Assembly: GCA_027485645.1 (NCBI GenBank)
Contig: JAIXQR010000001.1
Location: 186,001-250,000, forward strand
Length of the DNA stretch: 64,000 nt
Source of the DNA: a bacterium
Lineage (GTDB): Bacteria > Armatimonadota > Fimbriimonadia > Fimbriimonadales > Fimbriimonadaceae
Direction of reading: 5' to 3'
Shown here: positions 4,588 to 29,784 of the stretch, one piece after another
Position numbering within the stretch: position 1 is the first letter of the stretch
Layout: every line of letters begins with the position of its first letter
Position numbers and translations under genes: made by a program
The notes under the pieces: model-generated
The model's input: only the letters and a program-made list of their open reading frames with translations
Told to the model about the DNA's origin: nothing
The model's database searches: none

Positions 4588-4623
4588 CGTTTGTCCGGAT
4601 TAGGATTCCGGTTTGGCTGTGAT

Positions 4624-4731
4624 ATGAAGAACAAGGACGTTAAAGGGTTTTTGGTAGTAGTGCTGCTCTTTGTTCTGTTGTCGGTGTTTATTGGTTGGCA
4701 CTTGGATGAGGTTTTAGGGGCAAATTTTTGA
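4624..4731 (+). CDS. Possible small membrane peptide
   Basis: A 35-residue frame begins MKNKDVKGF and runs into one hydrophobic helix (VVVLLFVLLSVFIGW), then a short polar tail. It lies 36 bases after the preceding gene on the same strand. The start lacks a clear ribosome binding site, so it may be chance. The charged head followed by one clean membrane helix is why it is listed. Confidence 0.35.
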   Translation: MKNKDVKGFLVVVLLFVLLSVFIGWHLDEVLGANF

Positions 4732-4800
4732 GGCTCCGAATCTCTGATGTGTTCGGTGACTCGTAGCGTGGGCGTCCCGCCTGCGTTCGGAAAGTTGTAG

Positions 4801-4870
4801 GGAACGGGATTTGGCTGGGTTGGCGGGTTGCGGCTATGCGAACTCACTCGGGACGAGTGAGCTACGAGAC
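4801..4870. repeat. REP-like palindromic repeat, copy 2
   Basis: Second copy of the element at 2921-2989. The perfect stem CTCACTCG-GGA-CGAGTGAG is at 4843-4861. Both copies are in direct orientation around the DMP19/ankyrin cluster. Confidence 0.8.
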
Positions 4871-5009
4871 GAAAGGCGTTCGGGCTTGTTCGGGAATTCG
4901 GGTTTGATGTTGGGATTTCACTCGGCAAATTGACCGGACCTGCCTTACAATGCTTAGATGGTCCGTGTTCTCAGTCTGAGCGACAGAAGCTGATCCAGGG
5001 TCAAGTTAT

Positions 5010-5534
5010 ATGGTGCGGAAAATTCTCATTGGTCTCGGAATACTGGCTGCCGTTGTTCTTGTGATTTTCCTTGAAGTTGATCTGCATAAACGAGAGGTGT
5101 TTAAGACCGTGCGGCAATTTGATGCGAACTACTCGCTAGATGTCAAAGGCAACAAGCATGTTGCGATGATTCTTACTGAGTTTATTCCTGTTGCTCTGAA
5201 CGAGATACCTAGCTTACAAAAGAAGGGAGTGTACTGCTATTGCGTTGATACCTCGGCAATGGAACCCGAATTGGCTTACGTTCACCCGTATGCGGATCCA
5301 GATACACTTTTTTGGGGAAGCAAGGATCGCACGAAAATCAAGTGTGTTCGGTTTGGAGAGCAGACGGCGGTTGACCAGTTTTCCGTTCCGAAAAACTACT
5401 CCGGCCGAGTGCTTCTTGAGGAGAAGGAGAACTTCTTTCGAATTGAATACTATGGATGGACCCACTGGCACTTTAGCTGGTGGTTCTTGGACGGTGAGCT
5501 CCTATTTATGATGAAGGAGTATTTCGACCATTGA
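5010..5534 (+). CDS. Membrane-anchored hypothetical protein
   Basis: 174 residues. One hydrophobic helix at about 4-23 (KILIGLGILAAVVLVIFLEV) anchors or exports it. The rest is a soluble domain with aromatic patches (GWTHWHFSWWF near the C-terminus) and a Cys pair in YCYCVD. No family recognised. The gene stands 36 bases before another small exported protein, and the two may be co-transcribed. Confidence 0.75.
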   Translation: MVRKILIGLGILAAVVLVIFLEVDLHKREVFKTVRQFDANYSLDVKGNKHVAMILTEFIPVALNEIPSLQKKGVYCYCVDTSAMEPELAYVHPYADPDTLFWGSKDRTKIKCVRFGEQTAVDQFSVPKNYSGRVLLEEKENFFRIEYYGWTHWHFSWWFLDGELLFMMKEYFDH

Positions 5535-5570
5535 GTGTCTCTGCCGCGCAATATCGATTCTCGAATATAA

Positions 5571-6089
5571 ATGGTAACAGCATGTTTGATTTGCATATTG
5601 ACCCTCGCTGGTGGGCCGAAACTGGTGTCTTCTCGAATCCCCCAAGTTGGGTTGGTGCAAGGTTCGATTTCACTACCTGCGGATCTGAAAATTCTATTCG
5701 GTACTTCTTCCGATGCCACGTCAAAGAAGATTCCCTTAGTCATTCTGCTGTCCAATGAAAGTGCCACCGAGCCGGTTACTTTTCTAGATCGGGACTTTCG
5801 CCGTTGGAAAGTGGAGGTTATCTTTGTTGACAAAAGCGGCAAGAGAATCTGGTCGGAGAATGATCGAATGATCGATCAGAGTCCATGGGGCGCCACGGCG
5901 CGTCCGAAAGAAATCACGCTGGACCCGTTCAGGGTGTTTGGCTATCGGGACGTGTTCGACTTCCAGAAGCCACTTACGATTGCGTATGCGACGGCTCGCG
6001 TAACCATTGAAGTGAATCGACCCAATCAAAACCCGCAGATTGTTCGACTCGTTTCGGAGAAGGTGAAAGTCTGGCCAAGACCACGATAA
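5571..6089 (+). CDS. Exported hypothetical protein
   Basis: 172 residues. The N-terminus (MVTACLICILTLAGG) is a short signal-like stretch, with a Cys that could be a lipobox or simply part of the hydrophobic core. The rest looks like a beta-sandwich, with alternating hydrophobic strands such as KIPLVILLSNESA, WKVEVIFVDKSG and ARVTIEVN. That resembles domains describing relative hydration or reference values in other secreted proteins, but no family is certain. It probably pairs with the preceding membrane protein. Confidence 0.7.
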   Translation: MVTACLICILTLAGGPKLVSSRIPQVGLVQGSISLPADLKILFGTSSDATSKKIPLVILLSNESATEPVTFLDRDFRRWKVEVIFVDKSGKRIWSENDRMIDQSPWGATARPKEITLDPFRVFGYRDVFDFQKPLTIAYATARVTIEVNRPNQNPQIVRLVSEKVKVWPRPR

Positions 6090-6169
6090 GGGCAGTCTCG
6101 CCTCCATTTTTTCAGGTTGTGCGTCTTCGACTTTGAGTGCGCATGAACACTTCGGCTCTCCACCCCCAA

Positions 6170-6203
6170 CCCCCTCCTCTCGTTGGGAAACGAAAGGAGG
6201 GGG
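6170..6203. repeat. Strong hairpin, probable dispersed element
   Basis: CCCCCTCCT at 6170-6178 pairs with AGGAGGGGG at 6195-6203, with an inner TCGTT/AACGA stem around GGGA. It lies between two genes on the same strand and lacks a T-tract, so it looks more like an interspersed C-rich/G-rich hairpin repeat than a terminator. Confidence 0.55.
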
Positions 6204-6302
6204 CTCGCGCGTCCTCATCCGTGCCCCCTCTTCATCGGAATGGAGAGCGGGTTCGGGCGGTCCATCTTGCTTATCGCCAATGGGATTGTGCACCGGTGCG
6301 CT

Positions 6303-7352
6303 ATGCTTCGGCAAATGATCGCCGCTGCTCTTGCGCTCGGATCTATTGCCATGCAGACCCTATACATTGGAACGTACACCGGCCCAGAAGGGAGTAAGGG
6401 GATTTATCGCGTCGAGTTTGACTCGAGTTCTGGCCAGCTTTCGGCGCCGGAGTTGGCGGCAGAGGTGGCGAACCCGAGCTATCTGGCGCGGCACGGTGAC
6501 CGACTTTTTTCGGTAACGGAATGGGGCGGGGCGGCGGACTTGTTGGAGTTTCGAATTGCGGCGGACGGTCGGCTTGATCCGAAGACGGCTCAGCCAGCGG
6601 GCGGGGGTGGACCATGCCATATCGGCATCGATCCTGCGGGCAAATTCGCGGCGGTCTCGGCGTATGGTGGGGGCACAGTAACGCTGCTGGACTTAGCCGA
6701 GCCGAAGGTGATTTGGAAATTCCAAAACGAAGGTAAGGGCCCGAACGCGCAGCGCCAAGAGCGGCCGCACATGCACTTTGCGACGTTCTCGGCAGACGGC
6801 AAGCACCTTTACGCCTGTGACCTTGGGACCGATGAGGTTTTGAAGTTTGAGGTCGGGAGTTCGACGCCGAAGCGGTTCAAGATTCCGGCCGGCGGCGGGC
6901 CGCGGCACTTGGCGATTCATCCGGGAGACAAGTTCGTTTTTGTCGGTAACGAGATGACGAGCGCAGTGACGACTTTCCGGCGCGATGCGGCGGGCGACTT
7001 GACCCAGCTGGGGACGGTCAGCACGCTGCCGGAGTCGTTTGAGGGCAATTCGACTGCGGCGGTCAAGCTGCATCCGAACGGGAAGTGGCTGTACGTTTCG
7101 AACCGTGGGCACAACAGCGTCGCAGTGTTTTCGATCGCCGAGGACGGCACGTTGAAGCTACGGCAGGCGAAGCGGCTGGACCTGAAGACGCCACGCGACT
7201 TTTCCCTGGATTCTTCGGGCAAGTGGATTTTGGTGGCGGGGCAGGACAGCGGCGAACTCGTGAGCTACCGGCTAGATCCGGCGACCGGCGAGGTCGGGGC
7301 GGCGGTCGGTCGGGCGAACATTTCGAGGCCGGTTTGTGTTTTGGTTCAATAA
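6303..7352 (+). CDS. Lactonase-family beta-propeller protein
   Basis: 349 residues from the ATG at 6303. A longer open frame reaches upstream but crosses the hairpin element and reads unlike a protein, whereas MLRQMIAAALALGSIAMQ is a plausible signal peptide. The body has YIGTYTGPEGSKGIYR, NPSYLARHGDRL, GGGPCHIGIDPAG, GGGPRHLAIHPGDKF and KWLYVSNRGHNSVAVF. That is the repeat pattern of seven-bladed 6-phosphogluconolactonase/YbhE-like propellers (PF10282). Exported members are usually of unknown substrate rather than true pentose-phosphate enzymes. Family sure, activity unproven. Confidence 0.88.
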   Translation: MLRQMIAAALALGSIAMQTLYIGTYTGPEGSKGIYRVEFDSSSGQLSAPELAAEVANPSYLARHGDRLFSVTEWGGAADLLEFRIAADGRLDPKTAQPAGGGGPCHIGIDPAGKFAAVSAYGGGTVTLLDLAEPKVIWKFQNEGKGPNAQRQERPHMHFATFSADGKHLYACDLGTDEVLKFEVGSSTPKRFKIPAGGGPRHLAIHPGDKFVFVGNEMTSAVTTFRRDAAGDLTQLGTVSTLPESFEGNSTAAVKLHPNGKWLYVSNRGHNSVAVFSIAEDGTLKLRQAKRLDLKTPRDFSLDSSGKWILVAGQDSGELVSYRLDPATGEVGAAVGRANISRPVCVLVQ

Positions 7353-18420: not shown

Positions 18421-18816
18421 TCAAATCGTTGTTAGCCATGGCAGCTGTCTCAGGCGATCATCCGCGGTGGCCAGTGGGCAACGCAGGTGGTAGGCCGTGG
18501 CGGCGATGAACCGGTCAGCGGGATCTTCGTGCAGAAACGACAAGGTTCTCGACAGCAGCGCGATCTCATGGTCCAGCGGAATGAGGCGTAGCGAGCTTTG
18601 CGTTAACCACGCCCGAACGGTATGTTCGGGGCTTGAGGTGGTGTGGATCCGGCCCTTTTGCATCGCCACGACGGTTTCCCAGACGGAGACCGATGAAAGT
18701 GCGATCTCCGACTCTTCGGTTAGCGCCGCTTGAACCTTAGGGTCAAATTTCTCGGGTTCCAAATTAGCCCAAATCCAGATGTGGGTATCCAGCAAGATCA
18801 ATCGAGGGCCTCCCAT
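18421..18816 (-). CDS. PIN-domain toxin (VapC-like), second pair
   Basis: 131 residues. PIN acidic sites appear in LILLDTHIWIW, SVWETVVAM and DPADRFIAATA, with ATADDRLRQ at the end. This is the type II VapC/PIN subgroup (LLDTHxWLW). It starts inside the Phd-type antitoxin gene with a 19-base overlap. It differs clearly from the PIN protein at 14812-15228, so the two pairs are not recent duplicates. Confidence 0.9.
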   Translation of the reverse strand: MGGPRLILLDTHIWIWANLEPEKFDPKVQAALTEESEIALSSVSVWETVVAMQKGRIHTTSSPEHTVRAWLTQSSLRLIPLDHEIALLSRTLSFLHEDPADRFIAATAYHLRCPLATADDRLRQLPWLTTI

Positions 18817-19031
18817 GGCTCACTTAAGGGAGAGATGATGTCATCAACGATTTTCGCAGAGTCTCGGAATCGGCCCAACTCGAACTTGGCCGGCGGAGCG
18901 GTCGGCGGCGGGACCACCATTGCGGTCGGTTTCCCATGCTTGGTCAGCAAAACAGGTTCACCCGTTTGGGAAACCTCGTTGAGCATTTCTAGGCAATGTG
19001 CCTTGAAATCTGTGACCGAGACTGTTTTCAT
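18798..19031 (-). CDS. Phd/YefM-type antitoxin
   Basis: 77 residues from the ATG at 19031 (MKTVSVTDFKAHCLEML); an ATG three codons upstream at 19040 is also possible. The N-terminal Phd/YefM DNA-binding fold is shown by FKAHCLEMLNEV and PVLLTKHGKPTAMVVPP. The acidic C-terminal part would neutralise the PIN toxin whose gene overlaps its end. Both candidate start codons lie inside a perfect 7-bp inverted repeat, a likely self-operator. Confidence 0.9.
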   Translation of the reverse strand: MKTVSVTDFKAHCLEMLNEVSQTGEPVLLTKHGKPTAMVVPPPTAPPAKFELGRFRDSAKIVDDIISPLSEPWEALD

Positions 19032-19044
19032 AATGACCATTATG
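19029..19044. promoter_or_regulatory. Likely Phd-type operator
   Basis: CATAATG at 19029-19035 and CATTATG at 19038-19044 form a perfect inverted repeat with a 2-base spacer, overlapping the antitoxin start codons. Position and symmetry fit autorepression by a Phd/YefM dimer. Confidence 0.55.
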
Positions 19045-19140: not shown

Positions 19141-20055
19141 ATGTATAAATTCCCTCCGCTGTGGGCCGTATGCGCCATCGGTGCGCTCTCAATAGTAAAG
19201 GGGATCGACGAAGAACCGATTCGGGTGCGCGAAGTTTTGGATATGCCGGAGTTTCCGCTGGTTCACGTGGCTGGGGTGTGCGACATTTCCGCCGAAGGTG
19301 CCAAGTGTTGGGACAATCAGGGTCGGCGGTTTAAGTCTTTGAGCGAGCGGATTACGGCTTACTATCTCAGTCAGACCTTTGCCAGCCTCGCGATTCGTCC
19401 TGGGCTCAAGAATCGATGGGTCGCCTTTGAAAGGATGGATCCGGCGCCGCAGGCCATTTTTCAGTACAGCGGATTTGAGTCGGGCAACACGGGCGGGTAC
19501 GTGAGCGGTTGGCGCTCGGGAATGATGCTGGAGTGGGCGCGGCTGGACGTGTTGAAGGAAGACACGACGGCTCAGATGGCGATCAATTTCCATCGCATTC
19601 TGCCCTCGATCAACATTGGGCTGAAGAAGGGTGAAAGTGCGGTCGTCGGCGGAGCGCGGCTGACCGTGGCGGATTTTGGTCGGCTGACAAAGTCAAAGCT
19701 AACCTCGACACAAAGGTTTAGCGGTCCCGAAATGAAGTACTTCATTTCGGTTGATCGAAGCGCGATTGGGCAAGCCGAGCAAACGTTCAACCTGCCGCTG
19801 CTGTTGGACAAAAATGGTCAGGTTATTCAGCGAGTCGCCGAAAATGGGAAGCCGTTTCCGGCAGTCGATGGTTTTCCGATGAGCGGAAACTTCGCGCAGA
19901 TTTCGATATATTCAACTTCAGCGACCCGCGTACAATTCGCGACCAACGTCGATCCGGGCCAGGTAGCCCAGCTTCAATTTGGCCAGCACCAGAGCCGGAA
20001 GGTGATCTTTGAGGACCTTCGGCTGGATCCGCTGCCGGCCGGCACTGATCAGTGA
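19141..20055 (+). CDS. Secreted protein of unknown function, paralog A
   Basis: 304 residues with a short hydrophobic N-terminus (LWAVCAIGALSIVKG). Clearly paralogous along its whole length to the protein at 26129-27061: both have IRVREVLD-PEFPLV-VAGVCDI, GAKCWD-QG, IRPG-KNRWV, GMMLEW-RLD-LKED and a C-terminal ATNV-P block. The two conserved Cys (GVCDI and AKCWD) may form a disulfide. No known family recognised. It converges on the subtilisin gene 12 bases away. Confidence 0.75.
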   Translation: MYKFPPLWAVCAIGALSIVKGIDEEPIRVREVLDMPEFPLVHVAGVCDISAEGAKCWDNQGRRFKSLSERITAYYLSQTFASLAIRPGLKNRWVAFERMDPAPQAIFQYSGFESGNTGGYVSGWRSGMMLEWARLDVLKEDTTAQMAINFHRILPSINIGLKKGESAVVGGARLTVADFGRLTKSKLTSTQRFSGPEMKYFISVDRSAIGQAEQTFNLPLLLDKNGQVIQRVAENGKPFPAVDGFPMSGNFAQISIYSTSATRVQFATNVDPGQVAQLQFGQHQSRKVIFEDLRLDPLPAGTDQ

Positions 20056-20067
20056 ACGCGCATCTTG

Positions 20068-21387
20068 TTACAATCCAGAAACCGAGCCGTACACATCAAG
20101 GGCGCCTTGCCCCAAATTTTGATCGCTGAGCGGTTGGCTTCTCGACAGTGCACTTTGAAGGTCGCTGTAGGTGGCGGTTGGGTTGTAGCGCAGAATTTTC
20201 AGGGCGAGGCCTGAGACCAGGGGGGCGCTGAATGATGTGCCCCACCCTCCTGCCCAGCGATTTCCTGGGAACGGAAGCATGAGCCCTTCGCCCGGTGCGG
20301 CAACCCAGGTGAGGTCCGTGCCGGCATTGCTAAACAGGCTTCGCGTCGAGTTTGGTGTGATGGAGGCCACACCGGTCACCTTTGGCAGGGCTGCAGGGTA
20401 GCTGAGGGTGTTGATTCGACCATCGTTACCGGTAGAGGCCACGAGGATCACACCAAGGTCTGAGAGCTCGTCTGACGAGCGGGCGAGTTCAGGGGAATAA
20501 ACGTAGGTGTTCAGGCTCATGTTGATCACCTTTGCTCCACGAGCGTGGGCAGCATGCATTCCGCGGATGACGTCAAACAGTCGACCGGAGCCATTCTGGC
20601 TGAAAGCGCGGATCGGCAAAATCTTGGCATTCGGCGCAACTAGTCGGATTGCACCAGCGACCATTGTTCCGTGCCCAAGCCCTTTCGGGATCGCGCTGTA
20701 GGAAGGTGATGTAATCGTGCTCTCCGGAAACATTGGAGCGGTTCCGTTTGAGAGCCAGGAGAGTTTTGTTCGCAAAAGCGGCGTTGTGGTCGGGTTCACC
20801 TGTGCCAGCACTTCAGGACTCAAGCCCGTGAGCTCAGATCCTTGACCTGTAGGTGTGATGTAATCGAAACCGCGCAGGACGCGGCCAGCAAAAAATGGAT
20901 GGGAGGCATCCACGCCAGTGTCGATGACCGCAACGGTACCGTTGCCAAGGCTGTGGGCAGTCCAAGATGAGCTGATGCGGGACTGGTAAACGGTGTACTG
21001 CGTGGTCGCACCTTGCGGCACCGTCGCGCCATAAAAGTTGATGTTGGTGCTCCGAAGGAGAGCCTGCTGTAAGAGGTTTAGCGATGAGGTTTGCGGCCGG
21101 CTGAAGGAGAAGATGGGTAATCGGAGAGCTTGATCTCTTTCGATCGATACATCGCCATCGGATTCGCCAGAAATTTGCTGGATCAGAGATTGCGGATCAC
21201 GATTGAGGGCATCTTGAATCGAGTAGATCGGCTTTCCGGGAACGGTTGCTCGCAATCGGAGATTGTAGCGAGCGAGAAAAGTCCCGATGGGTTCGCTCTC
21301 GGTGTAGCGAAGAATGTAGTTCTGACTCGCGCTTGAGAGGGTGCAAAGAAGGGCAACGATGCCCACGCTCACGACTTTACTTTTCAT
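20068..21387 (-). CDS. Secreted subtilisin-like serine protease (S8)
   Basis: 439 residues. Signal peptide about 1-20 (MKSKVVSVGIVALLCTLSSA), then a propeptide-like region. The triad is complete: Asp156 in AVIDTGVDASHP, His239 in LGHGTMVAG and Ser385 in GTSFSAPLVSG, with the oxyanion Asn321 in ASTGNDG. The catalytic domain is of normal length and ends near the C-terminus, with no anchor. It is the last gene of the sigma/CHAT operon, its ATG overlapping the previous stop (21384-21387). An active exported protease is expected; its substrate is unknown. Confidence 0.92.
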   Translation of the reverse strand: MKSKVVSVGIVALLCTLSSASQNYILRYTESEPIGTFLARYNLRLRATVPGKPIYSIQDALNRDPQSLIQQISGESDGDVSIERDQALRLPIFSFSRPQTSSLNLLQQALLRSTNINFYGATVPQGATTQYTVYQSRISSSWTAHSLGNGTVAVIDTGVDASHPFFAGRVLRGFDYITPTGQGSELTGLSPEVLAQVNPTTTPLLRTKLSWLSNGTAPMFPESTITSPSYSAIPKGLGHGTMVAGAIRLVAPNAKILPIRAFSQNGSGRLFDVIRGMHAAHARGAKVINMSLNTYVYSPELARSSDELSDLGVILVASTGNDGRINTLSYPAALPKVTGVASITPNSTRSLFSNAGTDLTWVAAPGEGLMLPFPGNRWAGGWGTSFSAPLVSGLALKILRYNPTATYSDLQSALSRSQPLSDQNLGQGALDVYGSVSGL

Positions 21388-21902
21388 ATCTCAATCTCGT
21401 AGATCTCGCTGGACTGAACATCTTCAAATCTCAGAGTTCTCACTTCTGAGTCAATGACGATTTCGAATTGGCCCCGCTCATCGCAAAGAACTGCGTTGGA
21501 GTTCGTGGCCAAGACACGCACGGAAGTCGCTTCGCCAGCTTGGAAAATTCCAATAACGGCAAGCTTGTTTGACTTCGGAATCGGCTCTACCCGAAGTTCA
21601 ACTTGGGCGGATTCAAATTCGAAGCGGTAGTCGCGCACGGCGGAGGCAGTGCTTCTCATTCCAATGCCGCTGGTCGAAAAAGTGAGAATCCCTTTCCAAA
21701 CCTTTTGTGTCGGCAGGACGGGCAGAAGCGCTTTCGCCCGGGCAAGAAGCTCGGCGGGTACCGCTGGCGGCTTGGAGGCGTTCACTTTCCGCAAGAGCAT
21801 GGCCTGCTCCAGCGCAACCGGGTCAGATTCAACGCGGCTTGATTCTTGGGCATTTGCTAGACCCAAAGCATAGTTAACAATCTCTTCCCAGTTGGTTTTC
21901 AT
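21384..21902 (-). CDS. Anti-sigma-like small protein in CHAT operon
   Basis: 172 residues from the ATG at 21902. The N-terminus WEEIVNYALGLANAQESSRV followed by ESDPVALEQAMLLRK aligns with the short helical start of anti-sigma domains (YALG-ALD-EE-RVEAHL pattern) but lacks the zinc His/Cys residues. No membrane helix is visible. The C-terminal 80 residues are beta-rich, ending LRFEDVQSSEIYEIEI. Placed between a CHAT gene and an S8 protease behind an ECF sigma gene, an anti-sigma or adaptor role is reasonable but inferred. Confidence 0.65.
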   Translation of the reverse strand: MKTNWEEIVNYALGLANAQESSRVESDPVALEQAMLLRKVNASKPPAVPAELLARAKALLPVLPTQKVWKGILTFSTSGIGMRSTASAVRDYRFEFESAQVELRVEPIPKSNKLAVIGIFQAGEATSVRVLATNSNAVLCDERGQFEIVIDSEVRTLRFEDVQSSEIYEIEI

Positions 21903-21942
21903 TCGACCTCCGTATTCTATGGGCAGCAAGCGGGCAAAAGCA

Positions 21943-24414
21943 TCACAAGTTTTTGCCGATCGGTCTGCCAAAAAGTGCAAAAGGTGCCCAATCCGCTGGA
22001 TGCGGGTACCGATCCTTCGTGTGACGGACGGCGATTTCATAGGCTGCAAAGAGCCCACCGGGTAGAGCGCCGTAAAACTCGGTCATGAAGAAGCTGGTGG
22101 CTTCGTCTGAGACATCCCAAAGGGATGCTAAAACCGTATTCGCACCGGAAACAAGGAATGCCTCGATGAATCCTTCGGAATCGAGATGGTCCCCGAGGTT
22201 GGAGATGCCGGTTGAGCAGCCGCTCAGGGTCACTAGCTTGGCCTGAAGTTTTAGCGAGGCAACGTCAAGCACGGTCAAATCCCGTTCGCCAAGGCGCATT
22301 GCGCTGAGAAGAGGCTGATCTTCTTTCACAATCCCGTGGGCCGCGAGGTGAATCCATCCTGCCGAGCGAGCGTGCTCAAGGAGGTCACTTGCGGGGATCG
22401 GGGAGGTTCCAAGAAGGGTTGCAACTCGCTCAACTTCAAGGTCAATCAGGGGTGCCTTGTCGTCTCCGCTGCCACACACGACAGCATTTGTTCCTCCCCA
22501 CTTTCTTGCGGAGAGGGCGGCGTATACCGATGCACTCGGAGCGTAGGTCACTCGTGAATCTGGGAAGACCGCATGAAAAGGGACCGAGCGCAAGGGAGTC
22601 TCGCGGCCGATGATGAGTTGGGTTTGGTCGGCATAAATTGGGAGCAAGGCCTCATGCAGGTCTGCTAAGACTTGAGTTGCGCCTTCTCCGCCGGCCCGCC
22701 GATCTCGGCCAAGTTGAAACCGGAGCAGCCGCGCAAGTCGCTCGAACTTGGAGATCGGTCCGAGATTGTGCTCGACGACCGAATCCGAATCCAACACGAA
22801 AGCAAGCAAGTCGCCTTGGTCAGCAAAGAGTTCCACAAACCGCTGGTTCTGCTCCAGGCGAGGCAGCTGAATTTGCGGCACGGAGCCATCCGTAAGATTC
22901 CGGGCTTCTCGGAGTTCGTGCTCCGAGGTCACTTGCGGTAGCGCTTCGGGCGACCAGATCAACTCGGCAAGGGCCTGGTTTTTGAGGCGCACGACAACTT
23001 CGAGCCGTTGGCTGGGCTCGGTAAATGTTCTGAGTGCCTCGCGTAGGCGGAGGGATTGGGCTTGGGTTGTCGCTTGGCGCAGTCGGGAAGCCCCGAGTTT
23101 GGTCCGGTTCTGATCGTACGCCTGCAGTCCTTCTCGGGCGTGGGCCTTAGCTTCTTCTGCGTTCTTCTGAATTCGATGATATTTTGCGAGAAGGAACGGT
23201 TCGCGAGGCAACCGCTCGAAGGTCGTGAGGTCGCCGAGTTTGAGGGCTTGTTCCGCAAGTTCGGATTGGATATGCGGCAATCTCTCTGGTGCTGGGCCGG
23301 CAGATTCGGCAAGTTGCCATTCCCGATATGCCCGTCGACCTTTTCCTTGGCCCTTCCACAGTTCGGCAAACCCGGAATGGAGGAGGGATCTCCAGTTGGC
23401 ATTTGGTTCGCGACTGAGTAACTTCCGGGCTTCCTTGAGCGCGATCTCCCCTCGAGCGAGGTCGTCCCTTCGGATGAGGGCAATGCCTTCGATGAGCTTG
23501 GCTTTCCCGGTCTCAAACCGGGCTCCGAGAGTTTGAAAAACGTTGGCCGCTTGCGTGGCCGCGTCTTGGGCGTCGGTCCAAAGACCGAACTCTAACATGA
23601 AGTCGGCCTGATCTAAGAAGCAGTGACCGAGCTCAAACCCCATTTCGGACAGGAGGTTGAGCCTAAGGTGACGATAGAGCTGCAACGCGGACTGCAACTG
23701 GCCCTGTCGGCCGAGTAGGTAGGCCCGGTTGAGGTCAATTTCGAAAACAAGGGAATGTTGCTCAGCTTCTTCAAAGACGACTCGCGCTTCGGCGTACATC
23801 TTTTCCGCCGATTCAAAGTCGAGGAGCCCCATGAGGCAAACGCCGTAGTTTCGGGTGACGATCGTGAGGTCAGCGATCGCACCGGCCCCCGCCAGCACTG
23901 CCCGTGCCGATTCGTAGTGGGCTTTGGCTTCGGCTAAGCGATCCAACCGATGAAGGGCGTTGGCAAGATTTGCCTCGACGCGGGCAGCGCGGAACGTGTC
24001 ACCGCTCTCTTGAAAGTAGTCGAGCGCTTCGCGAGCAATGAAAAACGCTTGTTCGTACTGGCCCGTGTAGGCAAGGGCTTGCAGCATGGCTACGGCAGTT
24101 GCCGCGCGTTCTTCAGGTGAACTCGCAAATGCCTCTCGGGCTTGCTGGTAGCAAGGTACGGCTCGCTTGGCACGGCCAGCGAGCAGATTGACGTGGCCCG
24201 CAAGGCGGGCGGCTCTACCCACGGAGGGCGCATCGTTCAGTTTTTTCGCGAGTCGGGAGGCGTTGTCGGCGAGGTGGCGTGCAGCTTTGAGGTCCTGGCG
24301 AATGACGGCAAGTCCTTCGTCGGTGAGCGCGGTGACGGTTTCAACCGTTCGCAAAAGGCGTGGCGCCGGGATGGGGGCAGTTTTTGCCGCCGAAATGTAC
24401 TCAGGAAGGGTCAA
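21943..24414 (-). CDS. TPR-CHAT caspase-like protein
   Basis: 823 residues. Residues from about 35 to 450 are helical tetratricopeptide-type repeats (for example NYGVCLMGLLDFESAEKMY, DLNRAYLLGRQGQLQSAL). From about 560 on is a CHAT domain with the caspase-like dyad His693 in IHLAAHG and Cys733 in LSGCSTG, then FLVSGANTVLASLWDVSD. CHAT proteins are cysteine peptidases of the separase/caspase clan, often switched on through their repeat sensor. The TTG start overlaps the sigma factor stop (TTGA, 24411-24414), so the two are translationally coupled. No signal peptide, so cytoplasmic. An active protease is expected from the intact dyad. Confidence 0.9.
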   Translation of the reverse strand: MTLPEYISAAKTAPIPAPRLLRTVETVTALTDEGLAVIRQDLKAARHLADNASRLAKKLNDAPSVGRAARLAGHVNLLAGRAKRAVPCYQQAREAFASSPEERAATAVAMLQALAYTGQYEQAFFIAREALDYFQESGDTFRAARVEANLANALHRLDRLAEAKAHYESARAVLAGAGAIADLTIVTRNYGVCLMGLLDFESAEKMYAEARVVFEEAEQHSLVFEIDLNRAYLLGRQGQLQSALQLYRHLRLNLLSEMGFELGHCFLDQADFMLEFGLWTDAQDAATQAANVFQTLGARFETGKAKLIEGIALIRRDDLARGEIALKEARKLLSREPNANWRSLLHSGFAELWKGQGKGRRAYREWQLAESAGPAPERLPHIQSELAEQALKLGDLTTFERLPREPFLLAKYHRIQKNAEEAKAHAREGLQAYDQNRTKLGASRLRQATTQAQSLRLREALRTFTEPSQRLEVVVRLKNQALAELIWSPEALPQVTSEHELREARNLTDGSVPQIQLPRLEQNQRFVELFADQGDLLAFVLDSDSVVEHNLGPISKFERLARLLRFQLGRDRRAGGEGATQVLADLHEALLPIYADQTQLIIGRETPLRSVPFHAVFPDSRVTYAPSASVYAALSARKWGGTNAVVCGSGDDKAPLIDLEVERVATLLGTSPIPASDLLEHARSAGWIHLAAHGIVKEDQPLLSAMRLGERDLTVLDVASLKLQAKLVTLSGCSTGISNLGDHLDSEGFIEAFLVSGANTVLASLWDVSDEATSFFMTEFYGALPGGLFAAYEIAVRHTKDRYPHPADWAPFALFGRPIGKNL

Positions 24415-24983
24415 CCGATACCCCGGGCTCGGAGCGCCCGCTCAAGGGCTTCAAGGCATCGCTGCCGAGTCATCACGAGGGATGCTGGCTTCAGGCCCAT
24501 TGCTTGCGCGACGTCGGCATAACGTTGCGGAGACTCATCAAAGAAGAGGCGCATGATGAGCTCTTGGCATTTTGGAGATTGGGTTTGCACGGCGTCTCGA
24601 ACGATCTGCGCCGTTTCGGCCTGCTCAAGATCGGCCTCGAGATTTTGATCGGCAACGAAGTACTCGACGTCGTCTAGCGACACGTCCGCGGTGGTGGCCC
24701 TTTTTCGAACTCGGACGGCGTGGCGCAGGGTGGTTTGTCGAATCCAGGGGGTGAGCACATCGACCTTTTTGAGCTGGGGAAGCGCTTTGAAGAGCTCGAC
24801 AAAGACGTGCTGAAACGCGTCGGATTGCTCAGAGTCTGGAACCCGAAAAGTACGAAGAAGGGTGTAGACGTAGCCCGAGTAGCGATCAACGATGGCGGCC
24901 CAATCTTCGGCACTGCCACCTTGCGCGCGTTTGATGAAGTCAGCATCACTTCCGCGGGGCGCGCGCAACGGAAACTCCGACAT
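24411..24983 (-). CDS. ECF-type RNA polymerase sigma factor
   Basis: 190 residues from the ATG at 24983. Region 2 is seen as YSGYVYTLLRTFRV, SDAFQHVFVELFKALP and TPWIRQTTLRHAVRVRKR; region 4 as LIMRLFFDESPQRYADVAQAMGLKP followed by a recognition helix. Region 3 is absent, as in ECF factors. It heads an operon with a CHAT protease, an anti-sigma-like protein and a subtilisin, and probably controls this operon and the divergent gene at 25084. The target promoter motif cannot be told from one example. Confidence 0.9.
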   Translation of the reverse strand: MSEFPLRAPRGSDADFIKRAQGGSAEDWAAIVDRYSGYVYTLLRTFRVPDSEQSDAFQHVFVELFKALPQLKKVDVLTPWIRQTTLRHAVRVRKRATTADVSLDDVEYFVADQNLEADLEQAETAQIVRDAVQTQSPKCQELIMRLFFDESPQRYADVAQAMGLKPASLVMTRQRCLEALERALRARGIG

Positions 24984-25083
24984 AGCTGAATAATACGACC
25001 TGCCGCAAAGAATTATTGTTATGTATCGGTGCGCCGCTTGCCCTAGAAGGATGTAGCCGGACAATTCGGCCCAAGGAACAACA

Positions 25084-25995
25084 ATGAAGAACCTTCTTTT
25101 GCTTGCACTTAGCTTGTGCTCTGTTACTGCCCTCGCGAACAACGTGAGCGCCGAAATTTCCAGTAGCGACCTGAACATTCAGGGCGACTCGCTCGGAAAC
25201 CAGATTCGAATCGATCGCACGGTCAACGGTGTCCGGGTGGTTGGTCTGAATGGAACGCTCGTGAACGGCCTTCCGAGCGTTGCTTTCGTTACCGGCCCGT
25301 TGGTCAACATCAGCATGCTGATGGACGCTGGAGATGACGCGGTCACTTTCCGCAATGTCAGCAATCTGGGCGACGTGATCGTGGATGCGGGTGATGGCAA
25401 CGACATCATTACCGTCACCGGAAGCGGATCTCAGACCAACTTTGACCTGAAGGGCGAAGCTGGTAACGACCGAATCTTTGTGACGAACAGCACGGTTCTT
25501 GGCGACCTGCGAATGGACGGCGGCATCGGCGCAAACACGCTTCGTGCTACCAGCTCAACCGCAGGGAACAACCTGAGCGTGTTTGGCGGAGACTTAGCCG
25601 ATCGGATCGATCTCAGCGGCCTTCGAATCGGCGGAAACCTGGAAGTCTTTGCCGATAAGGGTAACGACGTCGTTAACGTAACCACGGCTGCGGTCGGTTT
25701 GAGCGCATTGCTCAACACCGATGAGGGCCTCGATCGGGTTGCCGCCTCTGGCATTCAGACGGGTCAGGACTTTGTGCTGGAGACCGGAGCGCAGAACGAT
25801 GTCGCTTCGCTTACGAACATCCTCAGTGCTGGCTCGATCGGAATCAGTTTGGACTCTGGCAACGACCAGCTTACGGCAACCAACGTGCAAGCACAGCTTG
25901 ATGCGGTGGCGATTGGCGGCGCTGGCTCCGACCGATTCACTCGAACCGGCTTCGGAGGGCTCAACAAGACCGAAGTCGTCGAATTCGAGTTCTAA
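25084..25995 (+). CDS. Secreted RTX-like repeat protein
   Basis: 303 residues with a signal peptide (MKNLLLLALSLCSVTALANN) and AAGGAAC-type ribosome binding site. Glycine/aspartate repeats recur throughout: DAGDDAV, DAGDGNDII, GEAGNDRI, GGDLADRI, ADKGNDVV, DSGNDQL and GGAGSDRF. These resemble calcium-binding RTX nonapeptides, spaced wider than in toxins, and predict a parallel beta-roll on the outside of the cell. It is transcribed divergently from the sigma factor with about 100 bases between, and ends in a good terminator. Possibly a substrate or co-regulated partner of the operon; that is inference. Confidence 0.75.
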   Translation: MKNLLLLALSLCSVTALANNVSAEISSSDLNIQGDSLGNQIRIDRTVNGVRVVGLNGTLVNGLPSVAFVTGPLVNISMLMDAGDDAVTFRNVSNLGDVIVDAGDGNDIITVTGSGSQTNFDLKGEAGNDRIFVTNSTVLGDLRMDGGIGANTLRATSSTAGNNLSVFGGDLADRIDLSGLRIGGNLEVFADKGNDVVNVTTAAVGLSALLNTDEGLDRVAASGIQTGQDFVLETGAQNDVASLTNILSAGSIGISLDSGNDQLTATNVQAQLDAVAIGGAGSDRFTRTGFGGLNKTEVVEFEF

Positions 25996-26043: not shown

Positions 26044-26128
26044 GTTTGGGGGTCGGGTGCTGGCGGCCCTTGAGATTTGCCGGTCATGCTGAACGATTGA
26101 GACGGGCTTGACCCGTCGAATAACTGCA

Positions 26129-27061
26129 ATGAAGCAATACCGTCAACTTTTCGCACTTTTCTCGTTGTTGGGCCTTGGGTTGGTGCAGGCGGCGCCTCAG
26201 TTATCCACCGCAAAAGACGAGGCGGTGATTCGAGTTCGAGAGGTTTTGGATCGGCCGGAGTTTCCGTTGGTGCGGGTTGCGGGGGTTTGCGATATTACGG
26301 CGGATGGGGCGAAGTGCTGGGATGGGCAGGGAAAGCCTTTTGCTTCGCTCGGTGAACGGGTCACGGCCTACTACATGGCCCAGAGCACGTTTACGCTCTC
26401 CATTCGGCCAGGGGTGAAGAACCGGTGGGTCGTGATGGAGCGGGAACAGCAGAACGCCAAGGCAAGCTATTTGTATACCGGCTTGAGTACGGGCAACAAT
26501 GCCGGCTCAATCTTGAACTGGCGCGAGGGGATGATGTTGGAGTGGTACCGGTTGGACCTGTTGAAAGAGGACAAGGTGGCCTCGGTGCAGGTGAAGTTTC
26601 TAAAGGAGGCTCCGGGCGTTCAGCTGCCGCTGAAGAAGGGGGCGAGTGCTGAACTTGACGGCGTTCGATTCTCAATCGACGAGTTCGGAGCGCTTCCCCG
26701 TGAGAGCATGACGGCGGCGTTGCTGTATATGGCACCCGCCGCGAAATACCGAATTCGCGTCAAGCGCCAGGTGCTGGTTGCGGGCCATCACCGATATAGC
26801 GGGCCGACACTTTTGGACAGCGAAGGGAACGCGATTCGGCAAGTGGACGAAAATGGCAAGCCCCTGCTTATGGGCTCGGCCCCGTTCGGTACGGGATCCG
26901 CTACCCAGCTTACTAACAGCCGAAGGTCGCCGGAGGAAGACGAGTACGCGACGAACGTAAATCCCCGGTATATCTCCGGCCTCAAGTACGGAAAGAATGA
27001 CCTTCAAGCGGTCGAGTTTGAGCAGATTCCGCTCGATCCGATTTCTGGCTCCGGCGAGTAG
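26129..27061 (+). CDS. Secreted protein of unknown function, paralog B
   Basis: 310 residues from the ATG at 26129 (MKQYRQLFALFSLLGLGLVQAAP is a good signal peptide; a TTG 7 codons upstream is less likely). It is a full-length paralog of 19141-20055 with the same VAGVCDI, GAKCWD and GMMLEW blocks. Differences are spread evenly, so the duplication is old. The two copies, in the same orientation, bracket the sigma/CHAT/subtilisin operon and the RTX-like gene. No family recognised. Confidence 0.75.
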   Translation: MKQYRQLFALFSLLGLGLVQAAPQLSTAKDEAVIRVREVLDRPEFPLVRVAGVCDITADGAKCWDGQGKPFASLGERVTAYYMAQSTFTLSIRPGVKNRWVVMEREQQNAKASYLYTGLSTGNNAGSILNWREGMMLEWYRLDLLKEDKVASVQVKFLKEAPGVQLPLKKGASAELDGVRFSIDEFGALPRESMTAALLYMAPAAKYRIRVKRQVLVAGHHRYSGPTLLDSEGNAIRQVDENGKPLLMGSAPFGTGSATQLTNSRRSPEEDEYATNVNPRYISGLKYGKNDLQAVEFEQIPLDPISGSGE

Positions 27062-27752: not shown

Positions 27753-28271
27753 TTAGCTCCGCCGCTTCCGGACGAGCGCGACGAGACCCGCACTCAGGGC
27801 GATGAGGGTTGCAGGTTCTGGGACAGGCGGTGGGTTCGGGTTGGAATCTACTCTGGCGTAGTGCGTATCAAATTCGTAGAACCCTTGTGCACTTTGACCT
27901 GGTACGCGAGCAAATCCAATTCCAATTCTGGCATTTGCAGGATAATCGGTAAAAGGATTGCCAACGAACTTAATTCTTGCAATCGGGCCTCGATACACGA
28001 TATTTTGATCAAACACTGGAACGAACCATTCTTCCACGCTCAAACGGTAATCATAATTCACCCCTGTAAACTCAGACCAATCTATCAGAGTGAGTTTGCC
28101 GGGACCGTGATCTAGCAAGCTTTGCTGATCCCAGTAAGCAATGCCAGAGATCAAGATTGTTCCGTCAGTATCAAAAACCTTCGGACCTGTGATGTCCAAG
28201 AATTGAGCCGAAGCAACTGCGCTGCTGGTCACGGCCACACAGACAATTGTGAATTTTGAGAAGGATTTCAT
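27753..28271 (-). CDS. PEP-CTERM protein, tandem copy 2
   Basis: 172 residues from the ATG at 28271 with signal peptide (FTIVCVAVTSSAVASAQ). The C-terminus has the sorting tag VPEPATLIALSAGLVALVRK followed by basic residues, the signal for exosortase-type processing. The mature part is beta-rich. It is a close paralog of 28367-28885 (FD-DGTILISG, EEWFVPVFD-N-VY-GPIA). The last 30 residues are identical between the two and also nearly identical in DNA, implying recent duplication or gene conversion. Confidence 0.85.
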   Translation of the reverse strand: MKSFSKFTIVCVAVTSSAVASAQFLDITGPKVFDTDGTILISGIAYWDQQSLLDHGPGKLTLIDWSEFTGVNYDYRLSVEEWFVPVFDQNIVYRGPIARIKFVGNPFTDYPANARIGIGFARVPGQSAQGFYEFDTHYARVDSNPNPPPVPEPATLIALSAGLVALVRKRRS

Positions 28272-28330
28272 AGGGTTCCCGACATGATCACTTTCCACTA
28301 GGTGGTGGAAGGTACGCCGAATTTGGTTAT
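28272..28330 (-). pseudogene. Remnant 3' tail of the 28882-29784 gene
   Basis: Upstream of PEP-CTERM copy 2, the minus strand keeps GTGATCATGTCGGGAAC and TTCCACC-AGTGGAA, the same words that encode the last residues (EWNVIMSG) of the 300-residue protein upstream of copy 1. The frame here is broken and a piece is missing. This marks the left edge of the duplicated unit. Confidence 0.6.
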
Positions 28331-28366
28331 CGTGCTGTCAGTCATTAAACGCGATGCCTCCGCTCG

Positions 28367-28885
28367 TTAGCTCCGCCGCTTCCGGACGAGCGCGACAAGG
28401 CCCGCACTCAGGGCGATGAGGGTTGCGGGTTCTGGGACAGGAGGTGGGTTCGGGTTCGAGTTCACTCTTGCACTTATACCGGCGGCAGCATAGTAGTACT
28501 CGTTATTATACGTGCCTGCCTGATGAAAGCCAATGCCAATTAGGGCGTCGACGGGGTAAGTAGTGCCTCGTTGTCCGGTAAACCTAATTTTAGCAATCGG
28601 GCCTTCGTAGACCATGTTTTTGTCAAAGACAGGCACGAACCACTCTTGAGCTTCTAAACGGTAGTCGTAGTGCACTCTAGTGTAAGCGTACCAATCAATG
28701 AGCTTTAGTTTTCCGGTGCTAAAGCCGTTAAGATTGTTCTTGCTCCATCCTATTCTTCCCGAAATCAGGATCGTTCCATCAGCGTCGAACGTTTTAGGTG
28801 CGGATAAGCTGATACTTTGTGCATGGGCACTCGCCGCGATAGCCAGGGCAATGGGTAGGAGGACGAAGTTGCGAGGGTTGTTCAT
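28367..28885 (-). CDS. PEP-CTERM protein, tandem copy 1
   Basis: 172 residues from the ATG at 28885 (MNNPRNFVLLPIALAIAASA, signal peptide). It has the same architecture as copy 2: a beta-rich domain with TFDADGTILISG and AQEWFVPVFDKN, then NSNPNPPPVPEPATLIALSA and RKRRS. Its ATG overlaps the stop of the upstream 300-residue gene (ATGA), so it is probably co-transcribed. No exosortase gene is in the window. Likely cell-surface or extracellular matrix protein. Confidence 0.87.
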   Translation of the reverse strand: MNNPRNFVLLPIALAIAASAHAQSISLSAPKTFDADGTILISGRIGWSKNNLNGFSTGKLKLIDWYAYTRVHYDYRLEAQEWFVPVFDKNMVYEGPIAKIRFTGQRGTTYPVDALIGIGFHQAGTYNNEYYYAAAGISARVNSNPNPPPVPEPATLIALSAGLVALVRKRRS

Positions 28886-29784
28886 ATAGTTCCCGACATG
28901 ATCACGTTCCACTCGGCGGTGGAAGCAGCACGGAAGGCGGCGAATCGGCCTCCGAAGAGTTTGATGAAAGTGTTGGTATCTATGCGCTGGTTATTGACAC
29001 CGGGGCCTGAGAAGGCATAGACCTCGCCAGTAATCGCTTGCGCAGAGCAATTGCGAATGACGAATACCGTCCCGATTGGTACGGCGAGAAGGTCTGGAAG
29101 AACAAGGCGGTCGTTCGGTGCAGGAAGGACGGATACGGGTTTCCAGCGGATGAATGGATGGGTGGTTGGCGGTAACGGATTCGGCTCGTTCCCATCGATT
29201 TCAGCCGCGTCTGTAACAAGGTACGACATGCATTGTATTTCCGTTCGGTAGGATGCCCGTCGGGAAATTGAGAACGGCGCGTTTCTATTAAAGAACGGCG
29301 AAAATGCAGTGATTTTTATCTCGTCGCCGACGTACTTAGCGAGATCGCCAGCTTGGTCACCGGTTGAACTGGTAACCGTCTCAATGTCACCCATGTGGAA
29401 CTGGCCGGAACTGCTCCGAATACTTAACTCAATCACGTTGGCACCGTTTGACCGGTTCATCCAGAGACCAGCAAATTGAGTGTAGTCCACTTTTCCGCTG
29501 ATTCTCCAGTTCTCCGGATTGGTGTAACCACCAAAAAGAATGCCGGAGGCCTGCGTGGCCCCGACACCGCCGTAGCCAAGGGAATCTCCACCCGTGTTGT
29601 AAATCCAAATTTCATCGACGGTTCCGTTGGACCCTTCGATAAAGAGGTTCGGGCCGTTCGTGCCTTCAGCTTCGCAATCGTTTTGTGCCCAAAACGGGCA
29701 ACTTCTTATGAGTCCGCTCGGAACATCGGCCTCGCATGCATTCTTAGCGTTTGCACTTGCGAGATCCTTTGCCGAAAGGGTCAT
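28882..29784 (-). CDS. Hypothetical protein upstream of PEP-CTERM gene
   Basis: 300 residues. No signal peptide at the N-terminus (MTLSAKDLASANAKNACEA). The middle is glycine- and asparagine-rich with beta-strand character (WIYNTGGDSLGYGGVGATQ, GLWMNRSNGANVIELSI). The C-terminus (VFVIRNCSAQAITGEVYAFS ... FAAFRAASTAEWNVI) resembles the beta-structured tips of phage or contractile-system tail proteins. No neighbouring tail genes support that. It overlaps copy 1 of the PEP-CTERM gene. Family unknown. Confidence 0.65.
   Translation of the reverse strand: MTLSAKDLASANAKNACEADVPSGLIRSCPFWAQNDCEAEGTNGPNLFIEGSNGTVDEIWIYNTGGDSLGYGGVGATQASGILFGGYTNPENWRISGKVDYTQFAGLWMNRSNGANVIELSIRSSSGQFHMGDIETVTSSTGDQAGDLAKYVGDEIKITAFSPFFNRNAPFSISRRASYRTEIQCMSYLVTDAAEIDGNEPNPLPPTTHPFIRWKPVSVLPAPNDRLVLPDLLAVPIGTVFVIRNCSAQAITGEVYAFSGPGVNNQRIDTNTFIKLFGGRFAAFRAASTAEWNVIMSGTI

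Follow-up and report, generated by a model that had tools for sequence, protein, structure and literature searches.

What does an ECF sigma factor govern when it shares an operon with a small protein and two proteases of different types? The question is raised by a minus-strand operon (24983–20068) of the window, that is, the whole 64,000-nt stretch of DNA analyzed here, which begins with an ECF sigma factor gene and continues with genes for a TPR-CHAT protease, a protein of 172 aa, and a secreted S8 subtilase (table 1). A sequence-only reading of this DNA had described four overlapping genes at 20068–24983 and had proposed a circuit in which the TPR-CHAT protease may cut the small protein and free the sigma factor. 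All four genes are found at that place, and 4-nt overlaps join the sigma factor gene to the CHAT gene and the 172-aa gene to the S8 gene, but the CHAT and 172-aa genes lie 40 nt apart. That interpretation as a whole is partly supported by our analysis; it did not include the parallel with the Csx29–Csx30–CASP-sigma arm of type III-E systems, an invariant arginine, the occurrence in several phyla, or the ECF54 neighborhoods.

The genome has no CHAT gene other than the TPR-CHAT gene of the operon. A CRISPR-guided system was considered and rejected because no RAMP-fold Cas gene (PF03787) was found in this 98%-complete genome, in agreement with the earlier remark that no CRISPR genes are present in this DNA. 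Control genomes do give matches to PF03787.

Table 1. Features of the Four-Gene Operon and of the Divergent Gene Next to It (Positions in the Window)
Feature	Position	Strand	Basis
ECF sigma factor, 190 aa, first gene	24411..24983	-	TIGR02937 sigma70-ECF 6.5e-13; adjoins in 34/38 Armatimonadota module loci
TPR-CHAT protease, 823 aa, TTG start	21943..24414	-	Pfam CHAT 1.2e-29, TPR_12 2.6e-12
CHAT catalytic His693	22336..22338	-	Invariant in 77/77 CHATs
CHAT catalytic Cys733	22216..22218	-	Invariant in 77/77 CHATs
Soluble anti-sigma factor, 172 aa, degenerate zinc anti-sigma domain and beta-sandwich	21384..21902	-	zf-HC2, RsrA, and antisigma matches in relatives
Anti-sigma domain, helices 5-12, 18-26, 28-42, 50-59	21726..21902	-	AF2 model
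C-terminal beta-sandwich, CarboxypepD_reg-like	21387..21707	-	AF2 model; CarboxypepD_reg and CarbopepD_reg_2 matches in relatives
Arg83, P1 position of the proposed CHAT cut, coil 77-89	21654..21656	-	R in 95/95 homologues
Secreted S8 subtilase, 439 aa	20068..21387	-	Peptidase_S8 2.5e-35; hydrophobic, signal-like stretch at the N-terminus
Divergent intergenic region with TGTYA-N15/16-YGYCC-like element	24984..25083	.	Alignment of 8 loci
Divergent secreted RTX-like protein, 303 aa, candidate target gene	25084..25995	+	Syntenic homologue in window and L032-L038

Association of the Four Genes in Distant Phyla

For Armatimonadota, 40 loci were fetched after a phylum-wide search with the TPR-CHAT protein and their genes were called. 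GTDB contigs were scanned for CHAT proteins with a profile built from a four-sequence alignment, and the profile of the 172-aa protein alone was used in a reverse search of the phyla of one Nocardioides and one Terriglobia genome. Two independent searches, one with CHAT and one with the 172-aa protein, show the four families as neighbors in Armatimonadota, Acidobacteriota, Actinomycetota, and Chloroflexota. The contig scan located the gene set in Acidobacteriota, in relatives of Rubrobacter and Nocardioides, and in Chloroflexota.

According to a six-frame tally, the anti-sigma-like gene adjoins 37 of the 38 Armatimonadota CHAT loci, the sigma factor gene 34, and the S8 gene 33, and 31 loci carry all four. 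The same tally over 44 CHAT loci from other phyla gave 37, 32, and 28, respectively, with 26 complete sets, many of the missing ones corresponding to contig ends or to distant CHATs. Six more distant CHATs (L104, L107, L108, L115, L118, and L123) have none of the partners and serve as an internal negative control. In the reverse search, strong matches to the anti-sigma profile were found in 13 of 198 genomes for the Nocardioides phylum and in 12 of 149 for the Terriglobia phylum. At the 23 profile loci with a full CHAT, the sigma factor gene is always adjacent (23/23), the S8 gene is co-directional in 19, and the set is complete in 20. A Bacteroidota sample, which held no positive control from that phylum, gave no match at 1e-12 (0/148 genomes). 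Adjacency is thus common in all these counts (31/38, 26/44, and 20/23 complete sets), contrary to the rare adjacency that would have spoken against the circuit of the sequence-only reading. Two gene orders are distinguishable: sigma-CHAT-small-S8, found in the window and in many Acidobacteriota, and sigma-small-CHAT-S8, found in most other loci.

Over 72 loci, the distances within the four families are correlated (Mantel r 0.77–0.86, 0/500 permutations), with r 0.86 for CHAT versus anti-sigma. As this correlation includes organismal descent, it demonstrates co-inheritance and not interaction. The combination of the four genes is far above chance, and their synteny is well supported.

Some genomes depart from the one-copy arrangement. 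One genome of the Terriglobia-phylum sample (G625) has seven full-length anti-sigma matches, suggesting a paralogous expansion into parallel switches, and at locus L062 two S8 genes stand in tandem downstream of the module (4599–7178, minus strand).

A Soluble Anti-Sigma Factor Encoded by the 172-aa Gene

The 172-aa protein of the window has no Pfam match above cut-off. An iterated profile started from it recovers the neighbor of CHAT throughout Armatimonadota. Among 27 of its relatives, zf-HC2 is matched in 7, and RsrA-type (8.6e-5) and antisigma (3e-4) matches are also found. Their C-terminal halves match CarboxypepD_reg (5/27) and CarbopepD_reg_2 (4/27). When PDB sequences were compared with the profile, RsiW (5wuq) aligned across the whole domain with an E value of 0.83, which is weak alone. 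In a search of 291 genomes, many further anti-sigma-like proteins aligned with positions 1–90 of the profile, and matches over its full length corresponded to CHAT loci. The AF2 model of the window protein (pLDDT 90.4) consists of four helices followed by a beta-sandwich. A structure search (Foldseek, VIA) with the small protein returned mostly generic Ig/SOD-like beta-sandwiches (best Z 8.2) and listed no anti-sigma structure, but it barely covered the helical domain and hence is no counter-evidence. The protein has neither a membrane segment nor an export signal. Its identification as a soluble anti-sigma factor, anticipated from the resemblance of its first residues to an anti-sigma domain, is well supported, and it would be expected to bind the sigma factor encoded beside it.

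The HxxxCxxC zinc motif is present in 56 of 95 homologues and absent from the window protein, as had been noticed from its sequence; several anti-sigmas of Rubrobacter and Nocardioides also lack the zinc residues. The window copy therefore belongs to the zinc anti-sigma family (ZAS, zf-HC2) by homology of the N-terminal domain within its family and not by its own zinc motif. Zinc anti-sigma domains of the RsrA/ChrR type can respond to redox or metals, and a ligand might bind to the beta-sandwich. Such a ligand, a metal, or a redox signal could then act on the anti-sigma itself to release the sigma factor, the TPR-CHAT protease and the S8 subtilase being co-regulated outputs with other substrates and Arg83, the invariant residue described below, a structural residue. 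We regard this alternative as unlikely, although worth keeping in mind: with the zinc motif in only 56 of 95 homologues, metal sensing cannot be general, and the tightly joint divergence of CHAT and anti-sigma (r 0.86) also speaks against it.

The TPR-CHAT Protease Resembles Csx29 and Separases

The large protein of the operon is a CHAT peptidase (PF12770, clan CD) by its domain match (1.2e-29) and by the conservation of H693 and C733. Cys733, the residue that the sequence-only reading had named for a cleavage test, is the catalytic cysteine and is invariant in all 77 CHATs analyzed. The best structural match of the AF2 model (pLDDT 90.2) is Csx29 (8eey_B, Foldseek E 1.1e-15, Z 30.3). Separases follow with Z scores of 20–27, their catalytic domain superposing at 3.0–3.4 A over about 290–300 residues, and DdvA (8rot_A) reaches Z 19.4 over 555 residues. 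Sequence comparison with a CHAT-domain profile ranks these proteins similarly: Csx29 1.7e-14, DdvA 1.7e-6, and separase 1e-3. Against NF041237, the curated Csx29 model, the protein scores 25.5 bits, far below the cut-off of 300.

The likeness to DdvA raises the possibility that TPR-CHAT acts as a scaffold or co-anti-sigma and not as a protease on the pathway, as may be the case for DdvA. A pure scaffold would have no need for His693 and Cys733, both invariant in 77/77, and the module has a separate anti-sigma; we consider this role very improbable. CHAT proteases also occur in defense systems, and the PADLOC model of BovA matches 8 of 22 module CHATs (best 1.4e-14), as would be expected if CHAT were an abortive-infection effector whose expression is controlled by the sigma pair. 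This match probably reflects similarity of the CHAT domain, and the wide distribution, the correlated divergence, and the constant secreted S8 partner fit regulation better, making a conflict system improbable.

The acidic residue D770 aligns with the LWDVTD motif of separase. CHATs at large probably share such a residue, which therefore offers weak support for a specificity for arginine; the conservation here of one particular separase aspartate was rejected after positions were counted. A preference of TPR-CHAT for arginine is suggested by the separase-like fold together with the invariant arginine of the putative substrate.

An Invariant Arginine as the Candidate Cleavage Site

Despite a median pairwise identity of 20%, one column of the anti-sigma alignment is fully invariant: Arg83, first in 67 homologues and then in 95/95. 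The next most conserved positions, Gly118 and Phe146, are kept in 92/95 each. Arg83 is embedded in the consensus G-[VA]-R-[SGA]. As a check of the alignment, we built a profile from 31 Armatimonadota sequences with the Arg column masked, and an arginine was exactly at this place in 59 of 64 sequences from other phyla. The residue sits in the coil 77–89 near the start of the beta domain, where the AF2 confidence is lowest. Separase, gingipain R, and MALT1, which belong to the same clan as CHAT, cut after arginine (PMC4626109).

We infer from these data that CHAT cleaves the anti-sigma factor and that Arg83 is the site. Arg83 could also be structural, because an anti-sigma that retains it is found at locus L164 (4534–6620, minus strand) beside an S8 gene with neither CHAT nor sigma factor. 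This apparently decayed module is the single clean case of a CHAT-less relative, a control too small to decide, and it agrees with release of the sigma factor by a signal on the anti-sigma itself. On the other side, invariance in the loop modeled with the lowest confidence is not what a structural arginine would usually show. A conserved cut site is no general rule for CHAT proteases, since Craspase orthologues cut at nonconserved sites (PMC11106740).

Taken together, we favor, with a probability of roughly 0.6, a cytoplasmic protease-gated sigma/anti-sigma switch in which TPR-CHAT cuts the anti-sigma after Arg83 and releases the sigma factor. In the resting state, the four-helix domain at the N-terminus of the soluble anti-sigma would hold the ECF sigma factor, and the long TPR superhelix would keep the CHAT peptidase inactive until a ligand or partner is met. 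The activated peptidase (His693/Cys733) would then cut after Arg83, which lies in a loop some 20 residues past the start of the C-terminal beta-sandwich, and the cut would destabilize the anti-sigma and set the sigma factor free. Once free, the sigma factor would induce its own operon and with it the secreted S8 subtilase; the divergent secreted RTX-like protein would probably be induced as well. As the proteins induced are secreted, a cytoplasmic cue would become an extracellular response.

Secreted Products and the Divergent Intergenic Region

An N-terminal signal-like segment is present in 54 of 61 S8 proteins, and the anti-sigma lacks a membrane segment; of the proteases in the set, CHAT alone is therefore expected to share a compartment with the anti-sigma. 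That the S8 subtilase, a protease gene co-inherited with the module, performs the cut in place of CHAT is hardly credible given these different expected compartments, and the S8 gene is absent from some loci that retain the sigma factor, CHAT, and anti-sigma genes. The subtilase is more plausibly an output of the switch, and autoregulation of the sigma factor is predicted, with the S8 and RTX-like genes among its putative targets.

The divergent RTX-like gene, for which a tie to the operon had been suggested, has no Pfam match and is syntenic in all eight closest loci (the window and L032–L038). Alignment of their shared intergenic regions revealed a conserved TGTYA-N15/16-YGYCC element. It is a weak lead to a sigma-dependent promoter that might place the operon and the RTX-like gene in a common regulon. 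Upstream of 56 module operons, a search for a shared promoter motif gave nothing above shuffles.

Comparison with Known Regulatory Systems

The closest parallel is the CASP arm of the type III-E system Craspase, which likewise combines a TPR-CHAT protease, a sigma inhibitor, and an ECF sigma factor in one locus (PMC10028731). There, Csx29, by sequence and fold the closest solved relative of the module CHAT, cuts the sigma inhibitor Csx30 (PMC10028731). The cut (427–429) falls about 20 residues into the C-terminal domain, visible from residue 407 (PMC10028731), and Arg83 is similarly placed. There are differences as well. Craspase has the effector gRAMP/Cas7-11 with its crRNA, whereas the genome of the window has neither this nor any other RAMP gene. 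Csx30 has about 565 aa, whereas the module anti-sigma has a zinc-type domain and a length of 172 aa. Among the matches of the anti-sigma profile to PDB sequences and of the model search, no Csx30 was listed. The proposed site of the module is an invariant arginine, unlike the nonconserved sites of Csx30 (PMC11106740), and the secreted S8 subtilase is a constant partner in the module, unlike in the Craspase arm. Because it has no guide effector, scores below the Csx29 cut-off, and carries an apparently different inhibitor, the module is not a member of Craspase; by analogy, it may work as a CRISPR-free counterpart of the Csx29–Csx30–CASP-sigma arm.

Genes for carboxypeptidase, subtilase, and CHAT-domain proteins are conserved beside the sigma factors of group ECF54, for which proteolytic control without an anti-sigma was proposed (PMC8999054, section 3.3 for the neighborhoods). 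The module matches this context by its CHAT, its S8, and the CarboxypepD_reg domain in relatives of the anti-sigma, and the loci of that review may be module loci. Our data differ from that description in that the CarboxypepD_reg-like protein is the anti-sigma and in the three further phyla. Anti-sigmas devoid of the zinc motif may explain why the ECF54 loci were described without one.

Proteolysis of anti-sigma factors is an established mode of control, and part of the gene association had been recorded for ECF54. In the RseA/DegS/RseP and RsiW systems, cleavage of an anti-sigma by proteases also frees an ECF sigma factor, but the anti-sigma and the proteases are membrane bound, whereas the module has a soluble anti-sigma and, as candidate protease, a cytoplasmic CHAT. 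DdvA, described in the title of PDB 8rot as a CHAT-domain-containing transmembrane anti-sigma factor, likewise ties a TPR-CHAT-like fold to an anti-sigma, but in a single transmembrane protein, whereas the anti-sigma and CHAT of the module are separate and soluble. Eukaryotic separase shares the helical superhelix with a caspase-like domain, the catalytic His and Cys, and the LWDV(S/T)D motif, and it cuts after arginine (PMC4626109), as is proposed for the module; it differs by its cohesin substrate, its regulation by securin, and its very distant sequence. The identity of the anti-sigma, its breadth, and the invariant site were absent from the literature searched, which left out most subscription papers.

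For CHAT proteases outside CRISPR, the module thus offers candidates for the substrate, the cut site, and the output, a set conserved in four phyla or more, and the remark on ECF54 neighborhoods (proteases and no anti-sigma) becomes a testable pathway. Given the invariance of Arg83, a single point mutant would test the key claim. The module also suggests a possible origin for the protease-inhibitor-sigma arm of Craspase. Tentatively, we propose a widespread pathway in which a separase-like, Arg-specific TPR-CHAT activates transcription by cutting a soluble anti-sigma at a single, strictly conserved position; the type III-E arm (Csx29–Csx30–CASP-sigma) could have been recruited from a pathway of this kind.

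Genes Flanking the Module

The module of the window is flanked on both sides by paralogous proteins of about 305–317 aa without Pfam match (19141–20055 and 26108–27061, plus strand), which start with VIRVREVLDRPEFPLVRVAGVCDI; several copies of this paralogue surround the same module at L032, a locus of a neighbor genome. Farther out (27753–28912, minus strand), two tandem, closely similar proteins share an identical PEP-CTERM-like C-terminus (NPNPPPVPEPATLIALSAGLVALVRKRRS), probably as the result of a recent duplication. Beyond the other end of the operon (18421–19040, minus strand), a PIN-domain-like toxin ORF (18421–18816) and, just upstream, a Phd/YefM-like antitoxin ORF (about 18798–19040) were recognized by eye.
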